From Myxococcales bacterium (lineage in GTDB: Bacteria; Myxococcota_A; Polyangia; Polyangiales; Polyangiaceae), in the NCBI GenBank assembly GCA_025355005.1, contig JANXLV010000045.1, forward strand, positions 1 to 64,000: a DNA stretch of 64,000 nucleotides, given 5' to 3'. The position numbers and the translations under genes were made by a program. Under the pieces are notes generated by a model. The model did not search any database. It saw nothing but the letters and a program-made list of their open reading frames with translations, and was not told the origin of the DNA. This document shows positions 37,802-50,404 of the stretch, piece by piece (position 1 is the first letter of the stretch; each line of letters starts with the position of its first letter).

Positions 37802-39019
37802 TCAGGCGGAAGGTCGAGCCTGGAGCCGGCGCTTCATGTCCGTGGGCTTCGACATGCGTGCGTCAATCCACTCCGTCAGCGGAGCAGCGACGTAGATGCT
37901 GGAGTAGGTGCCGGCGATGATGCCGACGACCATCGCGAGCGCGAAGTCCTTGATGATGCCCGTTCCCCAGATGAAGAACGCGAGGACGGACAGCATCGTG
38001 GCGCCGGACGTGAGGACCGTACGCGAGAGGGTCTCGCTGACGGAGAGGTTGATCACATCGCGGAAGGTGCGACCGCGGTACTTGCCCAGGTTCTCACGGA
38101 TGCGGTCGTAGACGACGACGGTGTCGTTCATGGAGTAGCCGACGATGGTGAGGACGGCGGCGATGGTGGAGAGCGTGATCTCCTTGTGCAGGGCGATGAA
38201 CACACCGATGACGACCATGGCGTCATGGATGCACGCAAGCACGACGCCCGGCGCAAAGCGCAGGTCGAAGCGGAACGCGAGGTAGAGCATGATGAACACG
38301 ATCGCGATGGCGACCGAGTTACGCGCGCTGTCACGCAGCTGCTTGCCGGCCTTGGGACCGACCCATTCGACGCGGAGCGCGTGCTCGGGGACGGTGTCGG
38401 CGCCGAGCTTCTGGCGCATGCCGTCCATGAGCTGGTCGCCCTTGGACTGCAGCTGCACCTCCACGCGGTGGTCGCGCGGGTTGATGACCTGCGGGTTCGT
38501 GGGGCTCACGCGTAGCTTCATGTTGGGGACGCTCTCGACCTGCTTTTTGATGGTCGCGACGTCCGGATCGGTGTCGTAGCGCGCGGAGATCTTGTCGCCG
38601 CCGGCGCTGAATTTCACCTCGGTGGCGCGCGCGTTCGCGGGGCACGCGTCGCTCGCGGCCTTGGTGGGGTCGTCCGTGAGGCACAACGACTTGCGGAGCG
38701 CGTCCTTGGACGCGTCATCGACGACGCTGACCTCTTGCACGCGGATGAGGAAGCGGTTCGGGTTCTTGTCGTCCTTCACCTCCACGACGTCGGGGTCGGA
38801 GAAGCCCGCGCCCGTGACCGCCTCGCGCACGCCGTTGGACGAGATCGCCTTGGTGAACGCGACCTCGAGCTCCGTGCCGCCGCGGAAGTCCGTGCCGTAG
38901 TTCGGCCCGGGAACCCACACGAGGATGGTGCTGATGACAACGAGCGACGCCGAGAGGATGATCCAGAAGCGGCGCATCCCCATGAAGTCGTAAACTTTGC
39001 CTGGCTTGAAGAGCTCCAT
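37802..39019 (-). CDS. secF: Protein translocase subunit SecF
   Basis: 405 aa. SecF works with SecD in the proton-driven release of translocating proteins on the periplasmic side. First helix FWIILSASLVVISTILVWVP followed by the SecF-type NYGTDFRGGTELEVAF, a periplasmic domain that is longer than usual (about residues 45-225, with insertions of charged residues and two Cys), and the five-helix bundle with AFRFDLRFAPGVVLACIHD, VGYSMNDTVVVYDRIREN and RTVLTSGATMLSVLAFF. Last gene of yajC-secD-secF, 18 nt after secD. Confidence 0.97.
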   Translation of the reverse strand: MELFKPGKVYDFMGMRRFWIILSASLVVISTILVWVPGPNYGTDFRGGTELEVAFTKAISSNGVREAVTGAGFSDPDVVEVKDDKNPNRFLIRVQEVSVVDDASKDALRKSLCLTDDPTKAASDACPANARATEVKFSAGGDKISARYDTDPDVATIKKQVESVPNMKLRVSPTNPQVINPRDHRVEVQLQSKGDQLMDGMRQKLGADTVPEHALRVEWVGPKAGKQLRDSARNSVAIAIVFIMLYLAFRFDLRFAPGVVLACIHDAMVVIGVFIALHKEITLSTIAAVLTIVGYSMNDTVVVYDRIRENLGKYRGRTFRDVINLSVSETLSRTVLTSGATMLSVLAFFIWGTGIIKDFALAMVVGIIAGTYSSIYVAAPLTEWIDARMSKPTDMKRRLQARPSA

Positions 39020-39037: not shown

Positions 39038-41047
39038 CTAGAACTCAGCGCCGACGCTGAGACGCGTGACCTTGGCGCCGCGCGCCCACCAATCGAAGAC
39101 GATGCGCGTGCAGAACACGCCCGTGTAGAGGCTCGCCACGATGCCGATGATGAGCGTGTAGGCGAAGCCCTTGACTGGTCCCGTGCCGTACTGCGAGAGG
39201 ATGAGGCCGGAGACGAAGACCGTGACGTGACCGTCCAGGATGGACGCGAACGCCTTGTCGTAGCCCGCCTCGACCGCGGCGCGGATGCTGCGGCCCGCAC
39301 GGAGCTCTTCACGGATGCGCTCGTTGATGAGCACGTTCGCGTCGACCGCCATACCTACCGTGAGCGCGAGACCCGCGATTCCAGGCAGGGTCATCGTGCC
39401 GCCGAGCGAGGCGAAGATCGCCATCTGCAGGAGGAGGTTGAAGAGCACGGCGCTGTCAGCGACCACACCGGCCTTCCGGTAGTAGACGATCATGAAGATG
39501 AGCACGAGGCCCATGCCGACGACGGCGCCCTTGCCGCCGTTGCTGATCGCGTCCGCACCGAGGGTGGGCCCGATGAGCGACTCGTTCGACGGCGTGATCG
39601 GCGCGGGGAGCGCTCCGGAGCGGAGCACCATCTCAAGCTTCTTCGCGTCCTTCAGCTGCTTCTCGGGATCGCCGCCGCCGAGCGTGATGCTTGCGCGACC
39701 GCCGCCGATCTTGGATTTGATGACGGGCGCCGAGTTGATCGCGTCGTCCAGGATGATCGCGAAGCGACGCTGCACGTTCGCGCCGGTGATCTCCTCGAAG
39801 CGGTCCGCGCCTGCGGGGCTGAACGTCACGGCGACGTAGAAGTTGCCCATGCCGTTCTGCGTGTCCTGGGCGACGGTGGCGTCGGTGATGTAGTCACCGG
39901 TGACCTCTGCGCGAGAGAACAAGTAGAAGGTGCGCCAGCCGACCTCGGTGGTCTTTCCCTCGTCCGCGTCGTAGTCGATGATCTCCTCGAAGCCGACCTG
40001 GTGGTCGTCCGGCACGTTCAGCGACTTCGCCCACTTCTTGAAGCGATCGCGCGCCTGGAGCATCGACTCGTTCTCGCGCTTCACGACGCGCGAGAAGTGC
40101 GTCTGCACGGACTTGCCGACGCCGCCGGGCGCCTGCTCCTGATAGATCGAGATGCCTTCGCCTTCGGGCAGGTCCGTGTCCTTGATGTTGCCGAAGAAGT
40201 CCGACTCGTCGTCGACCATCTTGAACTCGAGGCGTGCGGTCTGACGGATCGTCTCCTTGATCTCGTCGAAGGCCTTCTTGTCCTTGCCCGGAACCTCGAT
40301 GACGATGTCCTCGTCGCGGACGGTGACGGAGGCCTCGCGCAGGGCCAGCGCGTCGACGCGGCGGATGACCGTGTCCTTCGCCTGGGTGACCGCGCGCTCG
40401 CGGATCTGGGTCTCCACGTCCGTGCGGATCTTGAAGACGACCTCGCCCGGCTCCTTGCCCTTCTGCTGCGAGAGCTCGCCCGTGAACTTCTTCGAGAAGC
40501 GCTCGTCGATCTTGGAGACGTCCGCGGGGTCCTTGAAGATCACGCGCAGGATGGAGGTCTCCGCGCCGTACGCGATCTTCACCTTGCCGTCGAGCAGAGC
40601 GATCTCCTCGCGGCGGAGCAGGCCGTCACCCTTGTGGAAGTCGTACGTGATCGCGAGCTCGTGTCGCATCTCGTCGGCGAAGTGGTCGCGCTTGTCGCGG
40701 ATCGCCTCTTCGACTTCGACCGTGTACACGAGGCGAAGGCCGCCCTGCAGGTCGAGCCCCTTCGCGATACCGAAGGTGATTCGATCCTTCACGTACGCGG
40801 GGCACGGGATCTTGCCGCCCGACATGCTGTTCGCGGTCGGCCAGAGCGCCGTGAACGCGAGCAGGAACGCACACACCGCGAAGCCCAGCCTCGCGCGCCA
40901 CGCACCATCCATCACGTTGAGGAGGCCAATGGCGGACCACACGACGATGAGGATGGTGGTGACCAATCCCCAGAACGAATCGTAGTGATAAAAGAGCCCG
41001 CCCGCGCCGGCGCTGAGGGCGATGAGGATGAGGAGATTGCGTTTCAA
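39038..41047 (-). CDS. secD: Protein translocase subunit SecD
   Basis: 669 aa, within the range for SecD. First helix NLLILIALSAGAGGLFYHY, GLDLQGGLRLVYTVEVEEA (the conserved D1-D5 signature), VVRRVDALALREASVTVRDE-like strand region, the P1 head domain around 330-450, and the helix bundle with GMAVDANVLINERIREELRA, the proton-path motif, and RSIRAAVEAGYDKAFASILD. With SecF it forms the proton-coupled translocation motor at the Sec channel. 7 nt separate it from yajC. Confidence 0.97.
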   Translation of the reverse strand: MKRNLLILIALSAGAGGLFYHYDSFWGLVTTILIVVWSAIGLLNVMDGAWRARLGFAVCAFLLAFTALWPTANSMSGGKIPCPAYVKDRITFGIAKGLDLQGGLRLVYTVEVEEAIRDKRDHFADEMRHELAITYDFHKGDGLLRREEIALLDGKVKIAYGAETSILRVIFKDPADVSKIDERFSKKFTGELSQQKGKEPGEVVFKIRTDVETQIRERAVTQAKDTVIRRVDALALREASVTVRDEDIVIEVPGKDKKAFDEIKETIRQTARLEFKMVDDESDFFGNIKDTDLPEGEGISIYQEQAPGGVGKSVQTHFSRVVKRENESMLQARDRFKKWAKSLNVPDDHQVGFEEIIDYDADEGKTTEVGWRTFYLFSRAEVTGDYITDATVAQDTQNGMGNFYVAVTFSPAGADRFEEITGANVQRRFAIILDDAINSAPVIKSKIGGGRASITLGGGDPEKQLKDAKKLEMVLRSGALPAPITPSNESLIGPTLGADAISNGGKGAVVGMGLVLIFMIVYYRKAGVVADSAVLFNLLLQMAIFASLGGTMTLPGIAGLALTVGMAVDANVLINERIREELRAGRSIRAAVEAGYDKAFASILDGHVTVFVSGLILSQYGTGPVKGFAYTLIIGIVASLYTGVFCTRIVFDWWARGAKVTRLSVGAEF

Positions 41048-41054
41048 AAAAGGC

Positions 41055-41471
41055 CTACTTCTTGTCGGCGGTAGCCGCTTTGGCTTCCTTGAGATCCTTC
41101 AGATCCTTGTCGTCGGCTTTGGCGGGCTCGGCGGCGGCGAGCGGGCCGAGGCTGCTCGCGAGGACCTGTACGTTCACGCCTGGCGCGATCTTCACCTTGG
41201 CGATCTTCTCGTCCATCTCGAGGAGCTCACCGATGAGGCCGGCCTGGGTCACGACCTTGTCGCCCTTCTTCAGGCCCTTGCGCGACTCCGACTCCTTCTT
41301 CTGACGACGGAACATCAGGAACAGGAAGGGGACCATGATGAGCAGAGGCAGGAACATCGTGAGCGCGCCGCCCGGGGGCGCCGCCGCCTGAGCACCACCA
41401 CCAGCCGCGCCGCCAGCGGGGTCAACAGCTACGCCCGGGGTTCCGGCCTTGGGTCCAGCGTTTTGAAACAT
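41055..41471 (-). CDS. yajC: Preprotein translocase subunit YajC
   Basis: 138 aa, longer than the usual 85-110 because of a Gly/Ala/Pro-rich N-terminus (about 35 residues) and a Lys/Asp/Ala tail. The core is typical: a single membrane helix FLPLLIMVPFLFLMFRRQKK, then LKKGDKVVTQAGLIGELLEMD and VKIAPGVNVQVLASSL. YajC associates with SecDF; its contribution is mild. First gene of the yajC-secD-secF operon, and a GGCGGA-type ribosome binding site precedes it. Confidence 0.96.
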   Translation of the reverse strand: MFQNAGPKAGTPGVAVDPAGGAAGGGAQAAAPPGGALTMFLPLLIMVPFLFLMFRRQKKESESRKGLKKGDKVVTQAGLIGELLEMDEKIAKVKIAPGVNVQVLASSLGPLAAAEPAKADDKDLKDLKEAKAATADKK

Positions 41472-41568: not shown

Positions 41569-42852
41569 TCAAGTCAATGCGGGGTCGTGTTTTCCGCCGT
41601 GACAGGGCGGTGAGCCAGAAGCCCGCCGGCAGCACGATTTGTTCCCCCGACCTGAACTTCGACCTGAACTTCGACCTCGACCTCGACCTCGACCTCGACT
41701 CGACCTCAGCCTCGGTACGGGCCCTGTTGCGGCGCCGCTTTTCCCGAGGCGGCTGCCGCCATCGTCGCGACGTCCGTCAGCACGGCTCGCAGCTCTGCTT
41801 CGTTGAGGCACGTTCGTGGCAGCGCGAGGCTCAGGAAACGACCGAGCACCGCGAAGCGCGCCGTACTTCTGGACCAGCGCGAGGGCGTGGGCGCGTGTCT
41901 CTGGCCGTGCGAAGAACGCGCGCACGAGCGGCGCGGGGCTTCCTTTCAGGCGGAGGGCGCGGTCGAACGCGGCGTCCCCCACCTCGATATCGGAGAAGCC
42001 GATGACGTTGGCGAAGCGCGTGAACCCCGACTCCGGCGCGACGTCCACGCTCATGCCGGTGTCCGTGGGCAGGCTCAACAAGATCTGATTCCACATCGAC
42101 GTCGGATTGCTGCGCGTGAAAACGCGCGACTCGAAACCCTGGAAATTTCCGCGTAAAGTGCGACGCGGCACGTCGAAGGCGAATCGCTCGCGCTCGGCGA
42201 AATGCGCCCACGCGTCACGAACGAGGGCCTCGTCGCGGGTCTCGCCGATCAAGAGGCGCCGCTCCCCTGCCGCGCGCGCGAGCGCGGCCGCACGGGTGAG
42301 CATTTCCTGGAGGACGCTCGGATTCGCCTCGAAGCGTGACACCGTCGTCGCGGCGAACGAATCGTACGCGTCCGGATTCATTCCGCGCTCGACGGCAGAG
42401 AGCGCGTGGTCGGCGAGCGGCGGGTCGCGACCGGGCCACACCATCGCGCAGCCGCGCTCGGGCTGAAACGTTTGCACGTAGAGCTTGTCGTCGAAGAGGG
42501 GCACGCCGATCTTCGGGACGGCGCAGAGCCAGGTCGTGCGCGACAGGTGCATTCCCAGGAAGAGCGGGGGATCGATCTGCACCATCGCGTAGGTGTAGTG
42601 CGTGTCGCTGCTCGAGCCGCCGTCGCGAAAATAGTACGTGACCATGGCGGGCATCCCGTCCACCGCACCGACCATCCAGTTGTGCTCCGAGAGCTGGGTG
42701 TGCGGCCGCAGCGAGGCGACCATCGTGTCCCAGACGGGCGGAACCGTGTTGCCGTTGGTGTCGTCGCGCAGCTCGAAGCCAAGAGCGCGCGAGGCGGTCC
42801 ACCACGCCTGCGCTTGCTTGCTCAGCTTGCCCTGCCGTCCGAAGCGCTCCAT
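41569..42852 (-). CDS. Unknown protein, last gene of a five-gene operon, with a probable frame break
   Basis: As the sequence literally reads: 427 aa from ATG 42852, whose A is shared with the stop of the SUMF1 gene (TGATG). The first 340 residues look globular (LSEHNWMVGAVDGMPAMVTY, GFTRFANVIGFSDIEVGDAA, LVRAFFARPETRAHALALVQ) and match no family I know. After KYGA near 41865 the frame turns into Arg/Gly/Ser low complexity that translates the GACCTC microsatellite. Skipping one base in the GCGCGC tract gives a normal helical end (RFAVLGRFLSLALPR, LRAVLTDVATMAAAASG) stopping at 41706, just at the repeat. So either a frameshift mutation, a base-call error or programmed frameshifting. Confidence 0.65.
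   Translation of the reverse strand: MERFGRQGKLSKQAQAWWTASRALGFELRDDTNGNTVPPVWDTMVASLRPHTQLSEHNWMVGAVDGMPAMVTYYFRDGGSSSDTHYTYAMVQIDPPLFLGMHLSRTTWLCAVPKIGVPLFDDKLYVQTFQPERGCAMVWPGRDPPLADHALSAVERGMNPDAYDSFAATTVSRFEANPSVLQEMLTRAAALARAAGERRLLIGETRDEALVRDAWAHFAERERFAFDVPRRTLRGNFQGFESRVFTRSNPTSMWNQILLSLPTDTGMSVDVAPESGFTRFANVIGFSDIEVGDAAFDRALRLKGSPAPLVRAFFARPETRAHALALVQKYGALRGARSFPEPRAATNVPQRSRAASRADGRRDDGGSRLGKSGAATGPVPRLRSSRGRGRGRGRSSGRSSGRGNKSCCRRASGSPPCHGGKHDPALT
41649..41707 (-). repeat. Hexanucleotide microsatellite (GACCTC) with GACCTGAACTTC units
   Basis: Two copies of the 12-mer GACCTGAACTTC (41649-41672) are followed by four perfect GACCTC units (41673-41696) and a degenerate copy overlapping a TCA (TGA on the minus strand) at 41706-41708. 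Same unit as the 4621-4698 tract but in the opposite orientation relative to the adjoining gene. Lies at the 3' end of the five-gene operon, in the 234-bp gap before yajC. Confidence 0.88.
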
Positions 42853-43796
42853 CAGCCCTTGTCTTTCGCGCAGCGGAAGCCGACGTTGGGGCCTGCCTCG
42901 AGCGTGGAGCCCCAGTTGCGCGACGTGGCCTTCGTCATGGACGGCGGTGAGAGCCAGCCCCCGCCGCGCAGCACGCGGCTCGCTCCAGAGCGTGGCGCGA
43001 CGCCCTCCGCGATGTGCTCGACGTAGTAGTCGCTCACCCATTCCTCGACGTTGCCGGACATGTCCATCACGCCGAACGGGCTCTGACCCGACAGGTGCGT
43101 GCCGACGCGCGACGGGCGCTTGCCGGAGCAGCTCCGGCCAGTGGACTCGTGCAGGAGCGTCGCCGCGAAATTGCAGCCACCGGGCGCGCCGCCCCACGGA
43201 AAGCGCGCGGCCGATCTGCCTCGCGCCGCGAGCTCCCACTCGGTCTCGCGCGGCAGTCGCTTCTGGACGCTGCGGCAATACGCGTCTGCATTGGACCAGT
43301 GCACGCAGCTCACGGGGAGCAGCGGGTCGCCCAGCGAATATGTGCATAGTGCACTTGTTTTGGCCGGGGCCTGGCACGCGCGCTTCTCCACGCATGCGTG
43401 GTACGCGTCGACGGTCACCTCGGTCTTGTCGATGTAGAAGGCCTCCACCACCTCGGTGTGTGACGGGCGCTCGTTCGGAGCGGAGGTCTTGTCCGCGGCA
43501 GCGGCGCCCATGACGAAGCGACCACCTGGGACGAAGACCATTCCAGGGATCTGCGCATGCGGTGGCCCGAGCGGATGTGCGCCCGACGACGCCACCGGCG
43601 CGACCTTCACACCCGCATCCCGATCGGGTTGGATGTCGCCGGACGGAACAGCTGATGCACTCGGAGCGGGCAAAGGCTTCGGATCGTCCTCGCCGTCGTC
43701 CTCTTGCATGGGCTGCATGGGCTGCGCGAGCGAGAGCGCAGGCACGAAGATCGCGGTCAGAAGAATCAGCAGCGAGCCGCGACCATGGCCCCGCAT
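42852..43796 (-). CDS. Exported SUMF1/FGE-sulfatase-domain protein
   Basis: 314 aa with a signal peptide (LLILLTAIFVPALSLAQP), an acidic/Pro linker to about residue 80, then a formylglycine-generating-enzyme-like domain: FVPGGRFVMGAAAADK, ERPSHTEVVEAFYIDKTEVT, YHACVEKRACQAP, SCVHWSNADAYCRSVQKRLP, ETEWELAARG, MDMSGNVEEWVSDYY, SRVLRGGGW and GFRCAKDKG. Most members of this superfamily in myxobacteria are not true sulfatase activators but use the fold for binding or unknown modification, so activity is not assumed. Its start directly follows the PFOR-like gene's stop (no gap). Confidence 0.88.
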   Translation of the reverse strand: MRGHGRGSLLILLTAIFVPALSLAQPMQPMQEDDGEDDPKPLPAPSASAVPSGDIQPDRDAGVKVAPVASSGAHPLGPPHAQIPGMVFVPGGRFVMGAAAADKTSAPNERPSHTEVVEAFYIDKTEVTVDAYHACVEKRACQAPAKTSALCTYSLGDPLLPVSCVHWSNADAYCRSVQKRLPRETEWELAARGRSAARFPWGGAPGGCNFAATLLHESTGRSCSGKRPSRVGTHLSGQSPFGVMDMSGNVEEWVSDYYVEHIAEGVAPRSGASRVLRGGGWLSPPSMTKATSRNWGSTLEAGPNVGFRCAKDKG

Positions 43797-45380
43797 CTAT
43801 GAAGCTCGGGTGCGCCAGCGACCGGACTCGACCGCGGCGCGCGCGAGGGTCGCATCCTCTGGGTTGCCCGACGTGGCCGCGATCTCGCTCGCGATCTGAC
43901 CGCCGTCGACCAGAGCGCGATGGGCGTGAATGATGAACGCTGCAGCAAGCGCGGCGGAGCTCGCCTCGTCGTCGCGCATGGGCATGGCCCAGTCGAAGGA
44001 GCCGCGCACGGGCTCGGCGCGGGCGAGGCCCTTGCTGGCGGAGACGTCCACGAACACCGCGCCCTCGTCACCAGCGCGAAGCGCGGCGCGCGCGCGCAGC
44101 CCGGCTGCACCCGTCATGGCGGCGAGGAGGTATCGCGCGACCTTCGCGGCGGACTCCGGGTCCTTGCAGGAGACGCGAATGCGCGGCGCGGTGGATACGT
44201 CGCGGTCAGCGTCGGTCGCCTTGCGTGGGGCGTCGGCTTCGCCGAAGACGAACGAGCGGCTTGCGGTGTCACCGTCTCGCATGTTGCAGATGGCCGCGGC
44301 AAGATCGTCCTCCGTCAGACCGCCCTGTCCGAGCACAGCGGACGTGAAGCGCGGCACGCGACCCACACCGGGATATCCCGGCGCCCAGGTGATCGCGTCC
44401 GTGAACGCGGCCTTCAGCTCACGCGCGAGCGGCATCGTCTCCGTCAAGGGATCTAGCCCTGCCTCGATGACGGTGACGCCGTGTGCGCGCGCGAGCGTCT
44501 TCACGATACGCGGACCGTCGAGCGGCCTGAGCGCAGTGATCTTCAGGGCGGCGAGAGGACGCGGACCGTTCTGTGAGCGCTCCGCGACGCCAAGCAGACA
44601 GTCACCGGTGACACCCAGACCCACGAGCACCGCGTCCGCCTCGCCGGCGCCGCCAAGAGCGCCGGGCCCCGCGCGCTCCATCACGTCGTGACGGCGATGC
44701 GCGACGGACTCGAACCCGCGCAGCGCAGACGACAACGCGAAGGATGCACGGCGAGCGAACGTGCGCTCGTCCAGCTGCACGAAGACCGGATGCGCTGGAT
44801 CGCTGAGCTTGCAGAGTCGCGCGCGCGCCTTACCGACGTAGGCGCCGAGCGCGTCCGCGTCGCGCATGGATACGACCTCGTACGACGTGAGCTCCGCGTG
44901 CTCGTGCACGACGAAGAACGGAACGCCGCAGTCCTCCGCGGCGCGGCGCGCGATGAGCGCGAGATCGAACGAGTCCTCCGGCCCGGACGAGAACAGAAGG
45001 CCAAAGCCCAGATCCAGGAGCCCGTACACCGCGCCGCGCATGGCGTGCGGATCCGCGAGGACGTGAACGCAGACTCCCAGGCGTGATGCGACGAGCGCGC
45101 GCAGTGGCCGTCGCGCCGCGAGCACCTCCGGTGCGGTGCCGATCAACGTGATGCGAACACCAGACTCCGCGGCCTCCTTCGCGAACGACACGAGCGCCGA
45201 GAAATCAGCGCCCTTGTCGAGCAGGATCTCCTCACCGAACGCGTTGGTGCGGGGAAATACAGCCGCCTTACCTGCGTGCGCCTCGCTCTCGAGCGACGCA
45301 TAGATGCGCTGCGTGACGAGGCCCTCTGCGCGCAGGACCGCATCGAACGAGGTGCTCGATCGCGCGTTGCCGATGGTCAC
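43797..45380 (-). CDS. PFOR-like protein lacking the TPP and Fe-S half
   Basis: 527 aa from GTG 45380 (AGGAG 8 nt upstream; GTGA overlap of 4 bp with the preceding gene). The N-terminal 220 residues match pyruvate:ferredoxin oxidoreductase domain I, seen in GPEDSFDLALIARRAAEDCG and VPFFVVHEHAELTSYEV (compare VPFxHFFDGFRTSHE). Residues 240-390 match domain II (ADAVLVGLGVTGDCLLGVAE, RPLDGPRIVKTLARAHGVTV) and the GVGRVPRFTS...GLTEDDL linker. The C-terminal 130 residues look like a degenerate gamma domain. The usual 4Fe-4S ferredoxin motifs and the TPP-binding GDGxxxDIG region are absent, so it cannot be a complete oxidoreductase alone. Confidence 0.78.
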   Translation of the reverse strand: MTIGNARSSTSFDAVLRAEGLVTQRIYASLESEAHAGKAAVFPRTNAFGEEILLDKGADFSALVSFAKEAAESGVRITLIGTAPEVLAARRPLRALVASRLGVCVHVLADPHAMRGAVYGLLDLGFGLLFSSGPEDSFDLALIARRAAEDCGVPFFVVHEHAELTSYEVVSMRDADALGAYVGKARARLCKLSDPAHPVFVQLDERTFARRASFALSSALRGFESVAHRRHDVMERAGPGALGGAGEADAVLVGLGVTGDCLLGVAERSQNGPRPLAALKITALRPLDGPRIVKTLARAHGVTVIEAGLDPLTETMPLARELKAAFTDAITWAPGYPGVGRVPRFTSAVLGQGGLTEDDLAAAICNMRDGDTASRSFVFGEADAPRKATDADRDVSTAPRIRVSCKDPESAAKVARYLLAAMTGAAGLRARAALRAGDEGAVFVDVSASKGLARAEPVRGSFDWAMPMRDDEASSAALAAAFIIHAHRALVDGGQIASEIAATSGNPEDATLARAAVESGRWRTRAS

Positions 45381-45760
45381 TGGGTGGCTCCTGGCTGGGT
45401 CATCGGGTCCCAGCGTACGCAAACACCGGCGGCGTGGGAACGGGTGTATCCGACGTCGATGCGCACGCGGATGACGCCATCGCAGCCGAGCGACGCGGCC
45501 TTGGTGCGGAGCTCGCGGACGACCTCTTCGGAGGCGCTGGTGTCACCGAAGCCGAACGCTTGGACGAGGCCGAGCTCCGTATAGGGACGCGTGACGGGGG
45601 TGTCGGCGGAGATGAGCTCGACGGAGGAGACGGGCGACGCGGGAGGGCGGAAGAGGGCGGCGTGGGACTCGGCGTGGGCGCAGGCGGGGAGAATGAGGGC
45701 GAGGGTGAGGAGGAGGTGAAGGTTGAGGGGGAGGTGAAGGTTGAGGGGGAGGTGTTTCAT
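45377..45760 (-). CDS. Small lipoprotein with repeat-encoded signal peptide
   Basis: 127 aa. ATG 45760 overlaps the previous stop (ATGA). The signal peptide contains two identical hexapeptides HLPLNL, encoded by a perfect 18-bp tandem repeat, then HLLLTLALILPAC with a lipobox Cys. The mature domain has VELISADTPV, YTELGLVQAFG, a helix (SEEVVRELRTKAASLGCDGV) and VRIDVGYT, the same pattern as the lipoproteins at 16291 and 45757 (DUF4156/YbjQ-like). Its stop overlaps the PFOR-like gene's GTG. Confidence 0.78.
   Translation of the reverse strand: MKHLPLNLHLPLNLHLLLTLALILPACAHAESHAALFRPPASPVSSVELISADTPVTRPYTELGLVQAFGFGDTSASEEVVRELRTKAASLGCDGVIRVRIDVGYTRSHAAGVCVRWDPMTQPGATQ
45713..45754 (-). repeat. 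18-bp in-frame tandem repeat, 2 full copies plus a partial
   Basis: GAGGTGAAGGTTGAGGGG (plus strand) is repeated at 45713-45730 and 45731-45748, with GAGGTG continuing at 45749. It lies inside the coding region for the lipoprotein signal peptide, and its length (6 codons) preserves the reading frame. Confidence 0.85.
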
Positions 45761-46320
45761 TGGATGATCACCTCGTCTGGTGGGGGGCCTCGTTCTGGTC
45801 CTCTGGAGCTTGGGACTGGGTTGGGATCGGGCACGGGCGCGGGCGCGGGCGCGGGCACGTTTACGGGCGGCGGAGGAGGAGGCGGAGCGTGGTGCGTTGT
45901 CATGGCTCGGCCGAAGATGGAGACGATCATCACTTCGTCGGTGGAGCCGTAGGCGGACTTGGTTGCGCACGGGTGGCCGCGGCCGCAGATCACGTAGCCC
46001 GTTTCGATCTGGACTCTCGGGACCATCTCGAAGCGGGCTCGGACTCCGTCGATGACTGCGGCGTCGCCTCCCAGCGCGGCCACGCGACGGACGAACATCG
46101 GGAGGAGGTCGTCCACTGTTCCCTCTTGCTGCTCGCCATGGACCTCGATCACGCCGAGGTCGACTGCATCTCTTGGTGGATTGCCCGACGCATAGATGCG
46201 CACTGGCCCCGCATACGCTGGAGCCACCACGCCGGTGCGCACGTACGAGCCTCCCTGCGACGTACACCCCGTGAGGGCACACGCCAGAATCAGTGCAGAA
46301 TACAAATGACGAAGCGCCAC
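45757..46320 (-). CDS. Lipoprotein with YbjQ-like domain and Pro-rich tail
   Basis: 187 aa, first gene of the coupled operon 46320 to 41706. Signal peptide MALRHLYSALILACALTGC ends in a lipobox. The domain reads GPVRIYASGNPPRDAVDLGV, a helix (DDLLPMFVRRVAALGGDAAV) and RVQIETGYVICGRGHPC, similar in layout to the two other small lipoproteins. The last 55 residues are Pro/Ala/Val-rich (HHAPPPPPPPVNVPAPAPAP), a possible wall-spanning spacer. ATGA overlap with the next gene. Confidence 0.75.
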   Translation of the reverse strand: MALRHLYSALILACALTGCTSQGGSYVRTGVVAPAYAGPVRIYASGNPPRDAVDLGVIEVHGEQQEGTVDDLLPMFVRRVAALGGDAAVIDGVRARFEMVPRVQIETGYVICGRGHPCATKSAYGSTDEVMIVSIFGRAMTTHHAPPPPPPPVNVPAPAPAPVPDPNPVPSSRGPERGPPPDEVIIQ

Positions 46321-46392: not shown

Positions 46393-47709
46393 TCACATCG
46401 GCTGGATGACGACCGGCCAGTAGTGGATGGGACCGTTCTGCGTCACCTGCGCCTCCAGCAGGATGAGCGCGTAGCCCTGGCTCGGGTTCGACTTCAGCTT
46501 CACGGTGATCGTCGCCTTGCCGCCGACGGCGATCGCCTGCGAGGTCTGCGAGACCGTGAGCACGTCGGAGCCCTTGCCGAACTTGCTCGTGTACTCGGAT
46601 GCCAAGAAGCCCATCTCCGAGGTGGGTGCGTCGGCGATGCCTTGCACCTGGAACGTCGTGGTCTGACCGACCGGGACGCTGAAGACGTCTCCGTCACCGA
46701 CGGGCGCGACGTTGAAGTACGGCTGCGTGGCTGGCGACGGCGCAGGCACGCACGGATCGTGGCCCCCCTTGGCGGCCACGTTGTTGAAGATGCGCTGGAC
46801 CGTGTAGCTGCCAGACTTGATGAGGTCCGCGCCGCTTCCGAACATGTCGAAGCAACGGTCGCCGACCTCACCGCCGGCGAGCACGTCCCACGCGTCCTGG
46901 AAGCCGCCGTAACCGGTGTACGGGTTCTGCGGATCGGTGGAGATGAACGGGTCGGTCGCGGCCTCGGCGAGCTCGTGACTTGCGGCAGTGGTGAGCTGAT
47001 CGAGATCGCCCTGGGCCCCCTTGCCGGTCGCGCAGCGCGGCATGATCGCGTACGCGAACTGCACGCCGTTGTACTTCATCGAGTTGTGATAGCCGCCGAA
47101 CTTCTGGCAGCTCACGTCTCCATCCAGGGAGATGGTGCTCGAGGCGGGGAAGTAGATCATGTAGAGCGAGTTCGCCGTCGGCGCGGGGAACGTCGCGCTC
47201 GCGATGTAGCCGGAGATCATCGTCTGGATGGTCGATGCGCCGCCGCCCGCCGAGTCCGTGTAGTTCGCCTGGGCCGAGGCGGCCGGGAGGTGGACGTGCC
47301 CACCGCCCTTCGTCTGGCCTACGCAGTTCTTGCCATTGCCATCGCAGAAGCCCGCGCGTACGGCGTCCCACCACGCGGTGGTGCCGATGCTGTCGTCGAA
47401 CGACTCGATGGTGGTGCGGAGCGTGTCGTTGTCGAAGGTGACGCTGACGAGCGACGCAGCCGTGAGGAGCGGACCGCCGTTGTAGATGACGGGCGGGATG
47501 GGCTGCGGGTTCTGCGCCTTGGGGACGCTCGCGTCCTTCTTGCCGGCGTCCTTGCTTACGCCCCCGTCAACTACGACGTCGCCCGCGTCGGTGTCGTCGA
47601 CACCTCCATCGGAGTCCGCGGCGACGTGATTGATGATGGTGGTGCTGCTGCACGCAGCAACCGATACGAGGAAAGATAGGGGGAGGAAGATGGCGGCTGA
47701 GGAACGCAT
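46393..47709 (-). CDS. Lipoprotein with HELAEAATDP motif (EXORDIUM/metallopeptidase-like)
   Basis: 438 aa. Lipobox at VSVAAC (Cys20), then an Asp/Gly/Val linker (VDDTDAGDVVVDGGVSKDAG). A domain from about 72 to 340 starts PPVIYNGGPLLTAASLVSVT and contains YFPASSTISLDG, CQKFGGYHNSM and AASHELAEAATDPF at 242-255. The SHELAEAxTDP block is shared with plant EXORDIUM/PHI-1-like and related secreted proteins and could bind a metal through His245 and Glu246/Glu249. A beta-sandwich C-terminus follows (FQVQGIADAP, ATITVKLKSNPS). Whether it is a peptidase is unknown. Separate from the operon at 46320. Confidence 0.8.
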   Translation of the reverse strand: MRSSAAIFLPLSFLVSVAACSSTTIINHVAADSDGGVDDTDAGDVVVDGGVSKDAGKKDASVPKAQNPQPIPPVIYNGGPLLTAASLVSVTFDNDTLRTTIESFDDSIGTTAWWDAVRAGFCDGNGKNCVGQTKGGGHVHLPAASAQANYTDSAGGGASTIQTMISGYIASATFPAPTANSLYMIYFPASSTISLDGDVSCQKFGGYHNSMKYNGVQFAYAIMPRCATGKGAQGDLDQLTTAASHELAEAATDPFISTDPQNPYTGYGGFQDAWDVLAGGEVGDRCFDMFGSGADLIKSGSYTVQRIFNNVAAKGGHDPCVPAPSPATQPYFNVAPVGDGDVFSVPVGQTTTFQVQGIADAPTSEMGFLASEYTSKFGKGSDVLTVSQTSQAIAVGGKATITVKLKSNPSQGYALILLEAQVTQNGPIHYWPVVIQPM

Positions 47710-47845: not shown

Positions 47846-47865
47846 CTGTGAATTCCTCTTCACAG
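47846..47865. terminator. Inverted repeat across the PhoH-gene stop
   Basis: CTGTGAA (47846-47852) and TTCACAG (47859-47865) pair over a 6-nt loop. The stem includes the stop codon at 47860-47862 of the minus-strand gene. No T-run follows on the minus strand, so this is at best a weak terminator or 3' end stabiliser. Confidence 0.3.
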
Positions 47866-49167
47866 GAGATTTGCGGCGATCTCGGCGAGCTCGCTGCGCT
47901 CTCCCTTCGAGAGCACGATATTCGCGGCGCATTTCTCTCCCCGGAACTTGTCCGCGGCGATCGTCAGGCCGTTCGACGCGCTGTCGACGTACGGGTTGTC
48001 GATCTGGTGCGGATCGCCCGTGAGGACGATCTTCGTGCCGTCGCCGGAGCGCGTGATGATCGTCTTCACCTCGTGCGGCGTGAGGTTCTGCGCCTCGTCG
48101 ACGATCATGTACTGGCTCGGCAGTGAGCGACCGCGGATGTACGTGAGCGGCTCGACCTGCAGCTGCCCGCTCTCGAGCAGCTCTGCGTACGCGCGCGGGC
48201 CCTTCTTCGTCCCGCTCGAAAACAGGAACTCGAGGTTGTCGAAGATGGGCTGCATCCACGGGTTCAGCTTCTCGTCCACGTCGCCCGGCAAGAAGCCGAT
48301 GTCGCGGCCGAGCGGCATGACGGGACGCGACACGAGCATGCGCGAGTACACGCCGTCTTCCACCGTTCGCTTCAGGCCCGCCGCGAGCGCGAGCAACGTC
48401 TTGCCCGTGCCGGCCTTGCCGACGAGCGTGACGAGGCGAATGTTCTCGTCGAGCAAGAGGTCGAGCGCGTGGCTCTGTTCCTTGTTGCGCGGACGCACGC
48501 CCATCACGCCTTCGCGCGGCGTGCGCAGCGCGACGATCTCCTTCTTCGTCGGATCGAAGCGACCCAGCGCCGTGTGCGACGGGTTCGCGCGATCACGGAG
48601 GAGCACGCAGATGTTCGGCGAGAGCTCGTTCTTGGGCTTGATGCGCCCTTCCTGGAAGAACCTGTCGATCTCCTCTCCGTCGAGCTCGATCTCGATGATG
48701 CCCGTGTCCAGGCGCTCGGCCTCGACGCGCTGGTTCTCGTAGTTCTGCGACACCATGCCGAGCGCGTCCGCGCGAATGCGGAGGTTCGTGTCCATGGTCA
48801 CGAAGATGGTGGGCCTGCCGCCGTCCTCTTCGCGCACCTCGAACGCGGTCTGCAGGATGGCGTTGTCCATCGCAGCCTTGTCGATCGCGCTCGGGAGCTC
48901 GGGACGCTTGGTCGGGACCGCCACCTTGAGGTGGCCGCCGTTCTCGAGGGTCACGCCCTTGGAGAGCGAGCCGCCGGTCTCGCGAAGCTCGTCCAGGAGC
49001 CGCGCGATCGTGCGTGCGTTGCGCCCGCGCTCGGACCCCTCACGCTTGAAATTGTCGACCTCTTCGATGCAGTAGATCGGGATGACGACGTTGTTGTCGT
49101 CGAAGCGAAAGATCGCGCGCGGATCGTGAAGAAGGATGTTCGTGTCGAGAACGTAGTTTTTCTTCAA
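47860..49167 (-). CDS. PhoH-family ATPase with N-terminal PIN domain
   Basis: 435 aa. PIN-like RNase domain at 1-150: YVLDTNILLHDP with Asp8, an acidic EEVDNFKREGSERGRNAR helix and TMDTNLRIRA with Asp126, enough acidic residues for metal binding. PhoH ATPase domain at 220-435: Walker A GKAGTGKT at 250-257, SRPVMPLGRDIGFLPGDVDE, Walker B YMIVDEAQN and LTGDPHQIDNPY. PIN-PhoH proteins (PhoH2 type) are RNA helicase/RNase enzymes. A stem-loop lies in the leader upstream. Cytoplasmic. Confidence 0.93.
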   Translation of the reverse strand: MKKNYVLDTNILLHDPRAIFRFDDNNVVIPIYCIEEVDNFKREGSERGRNARTIARLLDELRETGGSLSKGVTLENGGHLKVAVPTKRPELPSAIDKAAMDNAILQTAFEVREEDGGRPTIFVTMDTNLRIRADALGMVSQNYENQRVEAERLDTGIIEIELDGEEIDRFFQEGRIKPKNELSPNICVLLRDRANPSHTALGRFDPTKKEIVALRTPREGVMGVRPRNKEQSHALDLLLDENIRLVTLVGKAGTGKTLLALAAGLKRTVEDGVYSRMLVSRPVMPLGRDIGFLPGDVDEKLNPWMQPIFDNLEFLFSSGTKKGPRAYAELLESGQLQVEPLTYIRGRSLPSQYMIVDEAQNLTPHEVKTIITRSGDGTKIVLTGDPHQIDNPYVDSASNGLTIAADKFRGEKCAANIVLSKGERSELAEIAANLL

Positions 49168-49282: not shown

Positions 49283-50404
49283 GTGAAAAAGCGCGTCGTC
49301 GCGATTCGCAAGAACACCCAGGCGGACCTCAGGGCTCCCTTCCTTCGCGCAGACAAGGTGCTCTCGGAGGCGATGGGCGCGATCCGGCTCCTCGGAGCGG
49401 CAACCCCGCGGAATGCAGCGCAGGAACGCGCCAGGTTGCTCTCGGCGTTCACCACCGGCTCGGAGGTCGCGCCTCGCTGGTCGTACGCACGCACGGATCA
49501 CTCGCAGCTGGTGAAGGCGCTCGAGCGCATGGCGGCCCGCTTCGTCGAGGAAGGGTCGCCCGTGCACGGCGTGTACGCGGCACGAGCGAGCGAGCTCGCG
49601 CTGGAGGCGCGCATCGCGGAGTCGGTCGGCACGGACACACTGGGCGCGCTCGCACGTGAGCGCTACGCCGCGGCCGGACAGAAGAAGGGCACCCTCGAGA
49701 CGCGCGCGGACGAGCTCGGACGCGAGTGGGCGGCGCTCACGCCGGATGACGCCGTTGAAGAGACCACGCAGAGCGACGCGCGTGTGCCTGGCTCGCTGCT
49801 CGTGCGCATGGAGGACGCGATCGCGCAGCTCCGCTTGCCCTTCACCGTCGTGGTGCAGCCGCAGCTGGCGGCCCTCGCGGCCGTGGGTGAGCATCATGTC
49901 TTCATCGCCACGGGACGGATGCTGTCGCGCGAGGACGTCGACCGCACCGTGCTGCACGAGATCGAGGCCCACGCCATCCCGCGCGGGCGCGCTGCCCACG
50001 CCAAGCTCGGCATCTTCCAGATCGGCACTGCGCGCGGCGTGGACGACCAGGAGGGCTTCGCGCTCCTCCTCGAAGAGCGGCATGGCTTCCTGAAGCCGCC
50101 TCGCAAGCGCGAGCTCGGCACGCGCCACGTGGCCGCCATGGCCATGACCGACGGCGCAGACTTCGTGACCGTGGTGAGGCTCCTCCGTGATCGCTACGGC
50201 GTGGGATGGGAACGCGCCATCACGACTGCAGAGCGAACCTTTCGCGGCAGCAACGGCGTGGCCGCAGGCCTCGGCCGCGAGCGCGTGTACCTGGAGGCGT
50301 TCGGACGCGTGAGAGCGCACCTGGCCGGCCGCCCCGAGGACGAGGCAGTCCTGTCCGCCGGCCAGATCGCAGTCGACGCCGTCAAGACGCTCAGCGTGCT
50401 GTGA
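49283..50404 (+). CDS. DUF1704/MATCAP-like metallopeptidase (QEGLA-motif protein)
   Basis: 373 aa from a GTG. The family was first labelled flavohemoglobin-expression-modulating QEGLA protein; related eukaryotic MATCAP proteins are tyrosine carboxypeptidases. HEIEAH at 225-230 fits the HExxxH zinc motif of that group, and DQEGFALLLEE at 255-265 supplies the QEG(L/F)A motif with a likely third ligand Glu. Upstream IATGRMLSREDVDRTVLHE is also typical. Cytoplasmic. What a bacterial enzyme of this group cleaves is unknown. It is divergent from the PIN-PhoH gene. Confidence 0.88.
   Translation: MKKRVVAIRKNTQADLRAPFLRADKVLSEAMGAIRLLGAATPRNAAQERARLLSAFTTGSEVAPRWSYARTDHSQLVKALERMAARFVEEGSPVHGVYAARASELALEARIAESVGTDTLGALARERYAAAGQKKGTLETRADELGREWAALTPDDAVEETTQSDARVPGSLLVRMEDAIAQLRLPFTVVVQPQLAALAAVGEHHVFIATGRMLSREDVDRTVLHEIEAHAIPRGRAAHAKLGIFQIGTARGVDDQEGFALLLEERHGFLKPPRKRELGTRHVAAMAMTDGADFVTVVRLLRDRYGVGWERAITTAERTFRGSNGVAAGLGRERVYLEAFGRVRAHLAGRPEDEAVLSAGQIAVDAVKTLSVL

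Follow-up and report, generated by a model that had tools for sequence, protein, structure and literature searches.

A contig of a Myxococcales bacterium (JANXLV010000045.1, of which positions 1 to 64,000 were analysed; this 64,000-nucleotide stretch is called the window) carries five closely packed genes on the minus strand, which we number g1 to g5 in transcription order from position 46320 downward. The original prediction described them as a single, fully overlapping operon ending at 41706 and proposed that they encode a stoichiometric complex or a fixed pathway, raising the question whether the five genes belong together and, if so, what they do. We find that g1–g4 are part of a conserved neighbourhood that is larger than the five genes, as it also includes phoH and yajC-secD-secF. 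The interpretation we favour, and hold tentatively, is that g1–g4 are accessory envelope-biogenesis genes kept beside yajC-secD-secF in one Polyangiales family, acting by the mechanism proposed below. Accessory proteins of the envelope or of Sec export are the most likely products of this cluster, rather than a metabolic pathway.

The genome that holds the window is of Polyangiales type (Myxococcota), 8.68 Mb in 380 contigs, with a completeness of 93.7%; among the named relatives found, a Labilithrix metagenome-assembled genome (locus L009) is the closest. Loci of relatives were retrieved and then scored with profiles of g1–g5. The family referred to throughout is one Polyangiales family (f1), in which 98 genomes were searched for phoH and secD. 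In related Polyangia the genes are arranged as phoH, g1, g2, (g3), g4, yajC, secD, secF. Full sets that include g3 are present at L009, L012 and L060 and in genome G172 (L010/L073), where an 8 kb insertion separates g3 from g4 and a further insertion precedes yajC; the set with g3 is also seen on partial contigs (L074, L078, L081). Sets of g1, g2 and g4 without g3 occur in the three complete genomes of genus g121 (L057–L059) and at L068 and L070/L079. At L067 and L069 g4 stands alone, and L071 has none of the four genes. The order and strand of g1–g4 are preserved across several genera, and the ratio of nonsynonymous to synonymous substitution rates (dN/dS) between L009 and L060 is 0.18–0.22 for the four genes, indicating purifying selection; the value for secD is 0.16, compared with 0.20 for g3. 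Scattering of the genes in relatives, which had been named in advance as the observation that would speak against an operon, is therefore not seen for g1–g4, but it is seen for g5. One local rearrangement was noticed: at L075 (940–1821, genome G212) g4 is inverted relative to yajC, and a sister genome (G230) has the usual orientation.

The fifth gene (g5, 41706–42852, starting at 42852) differs from the others in that the five genes together recur in none of the syntenic phoH/secDF loci of relatives; g1–g4 do, and g5 is absent from all of them. Its frame, read from the ATG, stays open to 41569, and the stop at 41706–41708 belongs to another frame, which encodes the C-terminus of the protein family (...GPYR) as in the homologues at L019 and L020. 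Codon scores along the gene switch frame between about 41880 and 41840. Because the starting frame lacks the stop at 41706 and the other frame carries the family end, g5 appears to contain a one-base frameshift near 41850–41880, either real or an assembly error. Relatives of g5 are found at other sites, with 24–30% identity, and make up a protein family of unknown function that is scattered over Polyangia; when Pfam and NCBIfam were run on all five gene products, g5 had no match in either. g5 is an unrelated local addition outside the conserved cluster. Just past its stop and before yajC, at 41640–41705, lies a hexamer-type repeat (GACCTC/GACCTGAACTTC).

All four junctions described in the original prediction are present on the minus strand. 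The open reading frames of g1 (45757–46320, GTG start) and g2 (45377–45760) overlap by 4 bp (ATGA, 45757–45760), g2 and g3 (43797–45380) overlap by 4 bp (GTGA), g3 and g4 (42852–43796) abut with 0 bp between them, and g4 and g5 share 1 bp (TGATG, at 42852). The overlaps of the proposed five-gene operon thus exist, but its last member is neither a single open frame nor part of the unit. Isolated short overlaps are commonplace in operons, and three of the four junctions are not kept: in relatives the g2–g3 spacing is +15 to +80 bp, the g3–g4 spacing is +9 to +36 bp, and the tight g4–g5 junction is not conserved. Translational coupling of g1 and g2 is conserved, since all 17 pairs examined, 12 at the phoH/secDF locus and 5 elsewhere, allow the same 4-bp overlap (ATGA or GTGA); it is the only conserved overlap among the four. 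A scan for promoter and terminator consensus sequences gave no signal above chance. The idea that strict coupling reflects a stoichiometric complex therefore survives for g1–g2 only, as the other overlaps are not kept and g3 and g4 occur independently of g1–g2. A five-gene stoichiometric complex is rejected, g5 being absent elsewhere and apparently frame-shifted and the remaining overlaps not being conserved. The strongest indication here of a co-translated g1–g2 heteromer is that every one of the 17 pairs allows the overlap, and the two products may assemble with each other.

What kind of proteins are g1 and g2? The g1 product has a lipobox cysteine (Cys19), a predicted RcsF/YbjQ-fold domain at about residues 38–143, two cysteines that are invariant in the alignment (Cys112 and Cys118) and a proline-rich tail. 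The g2 product has its lipobox cysteine at position 27 and invariant cysteines at positions 93 and 114. Neither lipobox has an aspartate at +2, in keeping with a probable sorting of both proteins to the outer membrane. By sequence, g2 resembles YbjQ (PF01906, E 0.0036), with 18.3 bits under the Pfam gathering cut-off of 23, and g1 has no Pfam or NCBIfam match; a sequence search of the PDB with the g1 and g2 profiles returned nothing but antibody, stathmin and dehydrogenase noise. The AlphaFold2 (AF2) model of g1 (predicted local distance difference test score, pLDDT, 75) aligns with RcsF (2y1b) over 78 residues at 2.2 Å with a Z-score of 10.1 (VIA-align) and with 1vr4 at a Z-score of 9.7; YbjQ and DUF74 structures score 9–10 and unrelated structures about 4–5. 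By this model, g1 is predicted to carry the RcsF/YbjQ fold, of the RcsF alpha+beta type. Of the two small YbjQ-like lipoproteins proposed at the outset, g2 is therefore recognisable by sequence, below the cut-off, and g1 through its predicted fold only. Comparison of the two profiles (hhalign) gives a probability of 93.9 over a region that includes the signal peptides, and g1 and g2 are, at the level of sequence profiles, distant homologues of each other. They are nearly always found together and adjacent; the exceptions are G171 and, at a contig edge, G209, which have g2 but no g1. A direct repeat at 45700–45760 (MKHLPLNLHLPLNLHLLLTL) encodes the signal peptide of g2.

The kinship of the folds of RcsF, YbjQ, DUF74 and DUF1471 proteins has been described (PMC4092069). 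The pair shares with RcsF and YbjQ/UPF0145 (2y1b, 1vr4) the predicted fold of g1, the weak YbjQ similarity of g2, and a lipobox with conserved cysteines. Unlike those proteins, g1 and g2 form an overlapping pair of distant homologues with proline-rich tails, and the identity to RcsF is about 15%. One could imagine that g1–g2 is an RcsF-like envelope-stress sensor pair that tunes Sec export, with g4 as a periplasmic partner and g3 as a cytosolic reader. The g1 fold is closest to RcsF, the invariant cysteines and lipobox are in place, and secDF and phoH adjoin. We consider this improbable, as the same fold is common to YbjQ, DUF74 and DUF1471 proteins with other roles (PMC4092069), the chain of contacts is hypothetical, and no signalling gene is linked; no Rcs gene was noticed at the loci, in which no search was aimed at the Rcs relay partners (IgaA, RcsCDB).

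The product of g3 had been described as a partial protein like PFOR (pyruvate:ferredoxin oxidoreductase), and this is correct. A profile of 12 g3 sequences matches PFOR structures with an E-value of 4e-28 over residues 47–546 of 1232, and the AF2 model (pLDDT 79; predicted template modelling score, pTM, 0.84) aligns with residues 2–619 of PFOR 7plm over 492 residues with a Z-score of 37.5, covering domains I–III. In the window the domain III portion is shortened, and the protein stops after this domain, lacking the Fe-S domain and domain VI, which binds thiamine diphosphate (ThDP). None of the 11 aligned g3 sequences has catalytic Thr31 or Glu64 in its PYR domain; NifJ and a split relative keep both. 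The position of Arg114, also in the PYR domain, is aspartate in the g3 profile consensus aligned to 7plm. In domain II, all 16 long and short g3 copies examined share the signature K[AS]AF[AT]DA[LI]TW...PG[IV]G[RS][IV]P, which is absent from NifJ and Rnf-linked PFOR and partial in the catalytic split PFOR of genome G351. In the longer form given for the g3 family it reads K[AS]AF[AT]DA[LI]TWxPx[FY]PG[IV]GR[IV]P. g3 therefore covers domains I–III of NifJ (7plm, 1b0p; TIGR02176) at about half its length, but differs in the lost Fe-S/ThDP half and catalytic residues, in its own domain II signature and in the lack of a partner subunit gene nearby. That g3 is a decaying pseudogene is rejected, because the examined copies have long open frames and the dN/dS is 0.20.

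Could g3 nevertheless serve an active 2-oxoacid oxidoreductase as its alpha, or alpha-gamma, subunit, and do the five genes make up a redox or metal pathway in which the YbjQ-like proteins bind metal and the SUMF1-domain protein acts as a maturase? The PFOR fold over domains I–III is in keeping with this, and a catalytic split relative exists in G351 (L094, 2193–6196), where a 770-aa alpha/gamma protein with CBS domains and a 564-aa Fe-S/ThDP beta subunit are encoded beside NADH dehydrogenase genes. This alpha/gamma protein is the top-scoring catalytic relative seen with the g3 profile (250 bits) and shares the motif KAAFADAL, but unlike g3 it keeps YPITPS and the catalytic glutamate, contains CBS domains and is encoded next to an Fe-S/ThDP subunit. 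At the g3 locus, no nearby gene for the Fe-S/ThDP-binding (beta) part was found; g3 is the sole POR_N match in the genome, and neither a full PFOR (TIGR02176) nor any other PFOR gene was found there. Together with the loss of Thr31 and Glu64, the replaced Arg114 and the missing cysteines of g4 described below, this makes an active enzyme very hard to credit.

The g3 gene is present in 19 of the 98 family genomes, and in 16 of the 19 it is found upstream of secD, with which it shares contig and strand; in the other three (G111, G207, G242) it is at a contig edge (loci L011, L061, L062, L091). More distant relatives, mostly with genomes of 9–16 Mb, have only a short g3 (about 360–385 aa, domains I–II) directly upstream of yajC (L109–L115). 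From this distribution, the association of g3 with yajC-secD appears to be the older one, and g1-g2-g4 a later addition.

In a tree, g3 forms a single, fully supported group separate from the degenerate Rnf-linked giants, and its derivation from them is rejected. Such giant PFOR-like proteins, about 1400–1680 aa long, are encoded in Myxococcota Rnf clusters (L095, L096, L098, L099, L100, L104, L105, L106), flanked upstream by RnfB and downstream by RnfC wherever the contig extends far enough. YPITPS and the catalytic glutamate are retained in some of these proteins, and both are lost at L095, L096, L104 and L106.

The g4 product matches the domain of formylglycine-generating enzyme (FGE) and sulfatase-modifying factor (FGE-sulfatase/SUMF1, PF03781) with 169.3 bits against a cut-off of 23.3 and carries an apparent Sec signal peptide, as expected of the exported SUMF1-domain protein first proposed, but it lacks the catalytic cysteine pair. 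In an alignment to FGE structures and of seven g4 sequences, the pair is missing in all seven, and the FGE motif RGGSYLCHDSYC is replaced by RGGGWLSxPS in each. The best NCBIfam match is GldK, with 92 bits, far under the equivalog cut-off of 350. PorK is a dead FGE fold that serves as a structural hub (PMC12421860). The FGE domain of g4 resembles PorK/GldK (PMC12421860) in lacking the two catalytic cysteines, but g4 differs in scoring below the GldK cut-off, in its apparent Sec signal peptide and in adjoining YajC-SecDF rather than type IX secretion genes. With catalytic residues missing in both g3 and g4, a metabolic pathway is rejected, and the fixed pathway first envisaged finds no footing.

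The folds (as predicted models), the lost catalytic residues, the synteny, the g1–g2 overlap and the purifying selection of the four genes are computed results; localisation, oligomerisation, contact with Sec and biological role we infer as follows. Coupled translation of g1 and g2 would most likely yield a hetero-oligomer of two outer-membrane-anchored, disulfide-containing periplasmic lipoproteins of the RcsF/YbjQ fold. g4 would be exported, its dead FGE fold acting as a binding scaffold like PorK/GldK. g3 would be a cytosolic pseudoenzyme, an alpha-like PFOR half (in long forms also gamma-like) that kept the fold, gained a new, conserved motif and lost ThDP catalysis. It would probably work through partner binding, plausibly tied to YajC-SecDF export, since yajC and secDF are its most constant neighbours. 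That all of this forms one Sec-linked accessory system for export or envelope quality control, with the pseudo-PFOR at YajC-SecDF in the cytosol and the RcsF-fold pair and the FGE scaffold in the periplasm, is conceivable, and we regard it as rather unlikely.

Several observations weigh against the accessory envelope-biogenesis interpretation. The g1–g2 pair is also found at other loci (L116–L120), g4 occurs without the others at L067 and L069, and g3 lies away from secDF in G170 and G179, which belong to another family (f6). Most family genomes lack g1–g3, and the module is therefore dispensable for SecDF. As the genome is 93.7% complete, the missing PFOR could be a gap. Neighbourhood alone is no proof of joint function. 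The main rival is that separate modules (g1–g2, g3, g4 and g5) gathered by chance at the phoH/secDF locus, their overlaps being mere genome compaction, and we take this to be a real possibility. It would account for the independent gain and loss of the genes (none in G055, only g4 in G166 and G243, no g3 in g121, only g3 in the large-genome relatives), as it would for the g1–g2 pairs elsewhere and for overlaps that, besides g1–g2, are not conserved. It is less easily squared with the order and strand kept over several genera, and with the fact that all family genomes in which it can be judged show g3 linked to yajC-secD. The presence of g3 and g4 is independent of g1–g2, as shown by loci with g1, g2 and g4 without g3, with g4 alone, and with g3 alone upstream of yajC.

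Every fold in the cluster is already known. Within a limited searchable collection of literature, the gene combination and a non-catalytic PFOR half tied to SecDF were not found; no paper on Labilithrix and SecDF was found, and those on PFOR and myxobacteria or Rnf held nothing on the cluster. A conserved PFOR that is catalytically dead and kept beside SecDF would be a clear non-metabolic use of a central metabolic enzyme fold, and would suggest that bacteria with very large secretomes possess lineage-specific Sec translocon helpers. The overlap allowed by all 17 lipoprotein pairs leads to the prediction of a heteromer, which is simple to test, and the analysis sets a genuine conserved cluster, g1–g4, apart from an accidental fifth gene.

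The flanking genes yajC, secD, secF and phoH are on the minus strand. Downstream, yajC (41055–41471; PF02699, E 9e-14) keeps its synteny across relatives, followed by secD (39038–41047) and secF (37802–39019), both assigned by similarity and synteny and kept as neighbours in relatives. Upstream, phoH (47860–49167; PIN_4 and PhoH domains), assigned by domain match and synteny, is kept in the nearer relatives. Between phoH and g1, a gene at 46393–47709 encodes a 438-aa predicted lipoprotein or secreted protein; of the loci compared, only the window shows it. Beyond phoH and divergent from it, at 49283–50404, a MATCAP (PF08014) peptidase-like gene is found in the window and at L009, L010 and L012.

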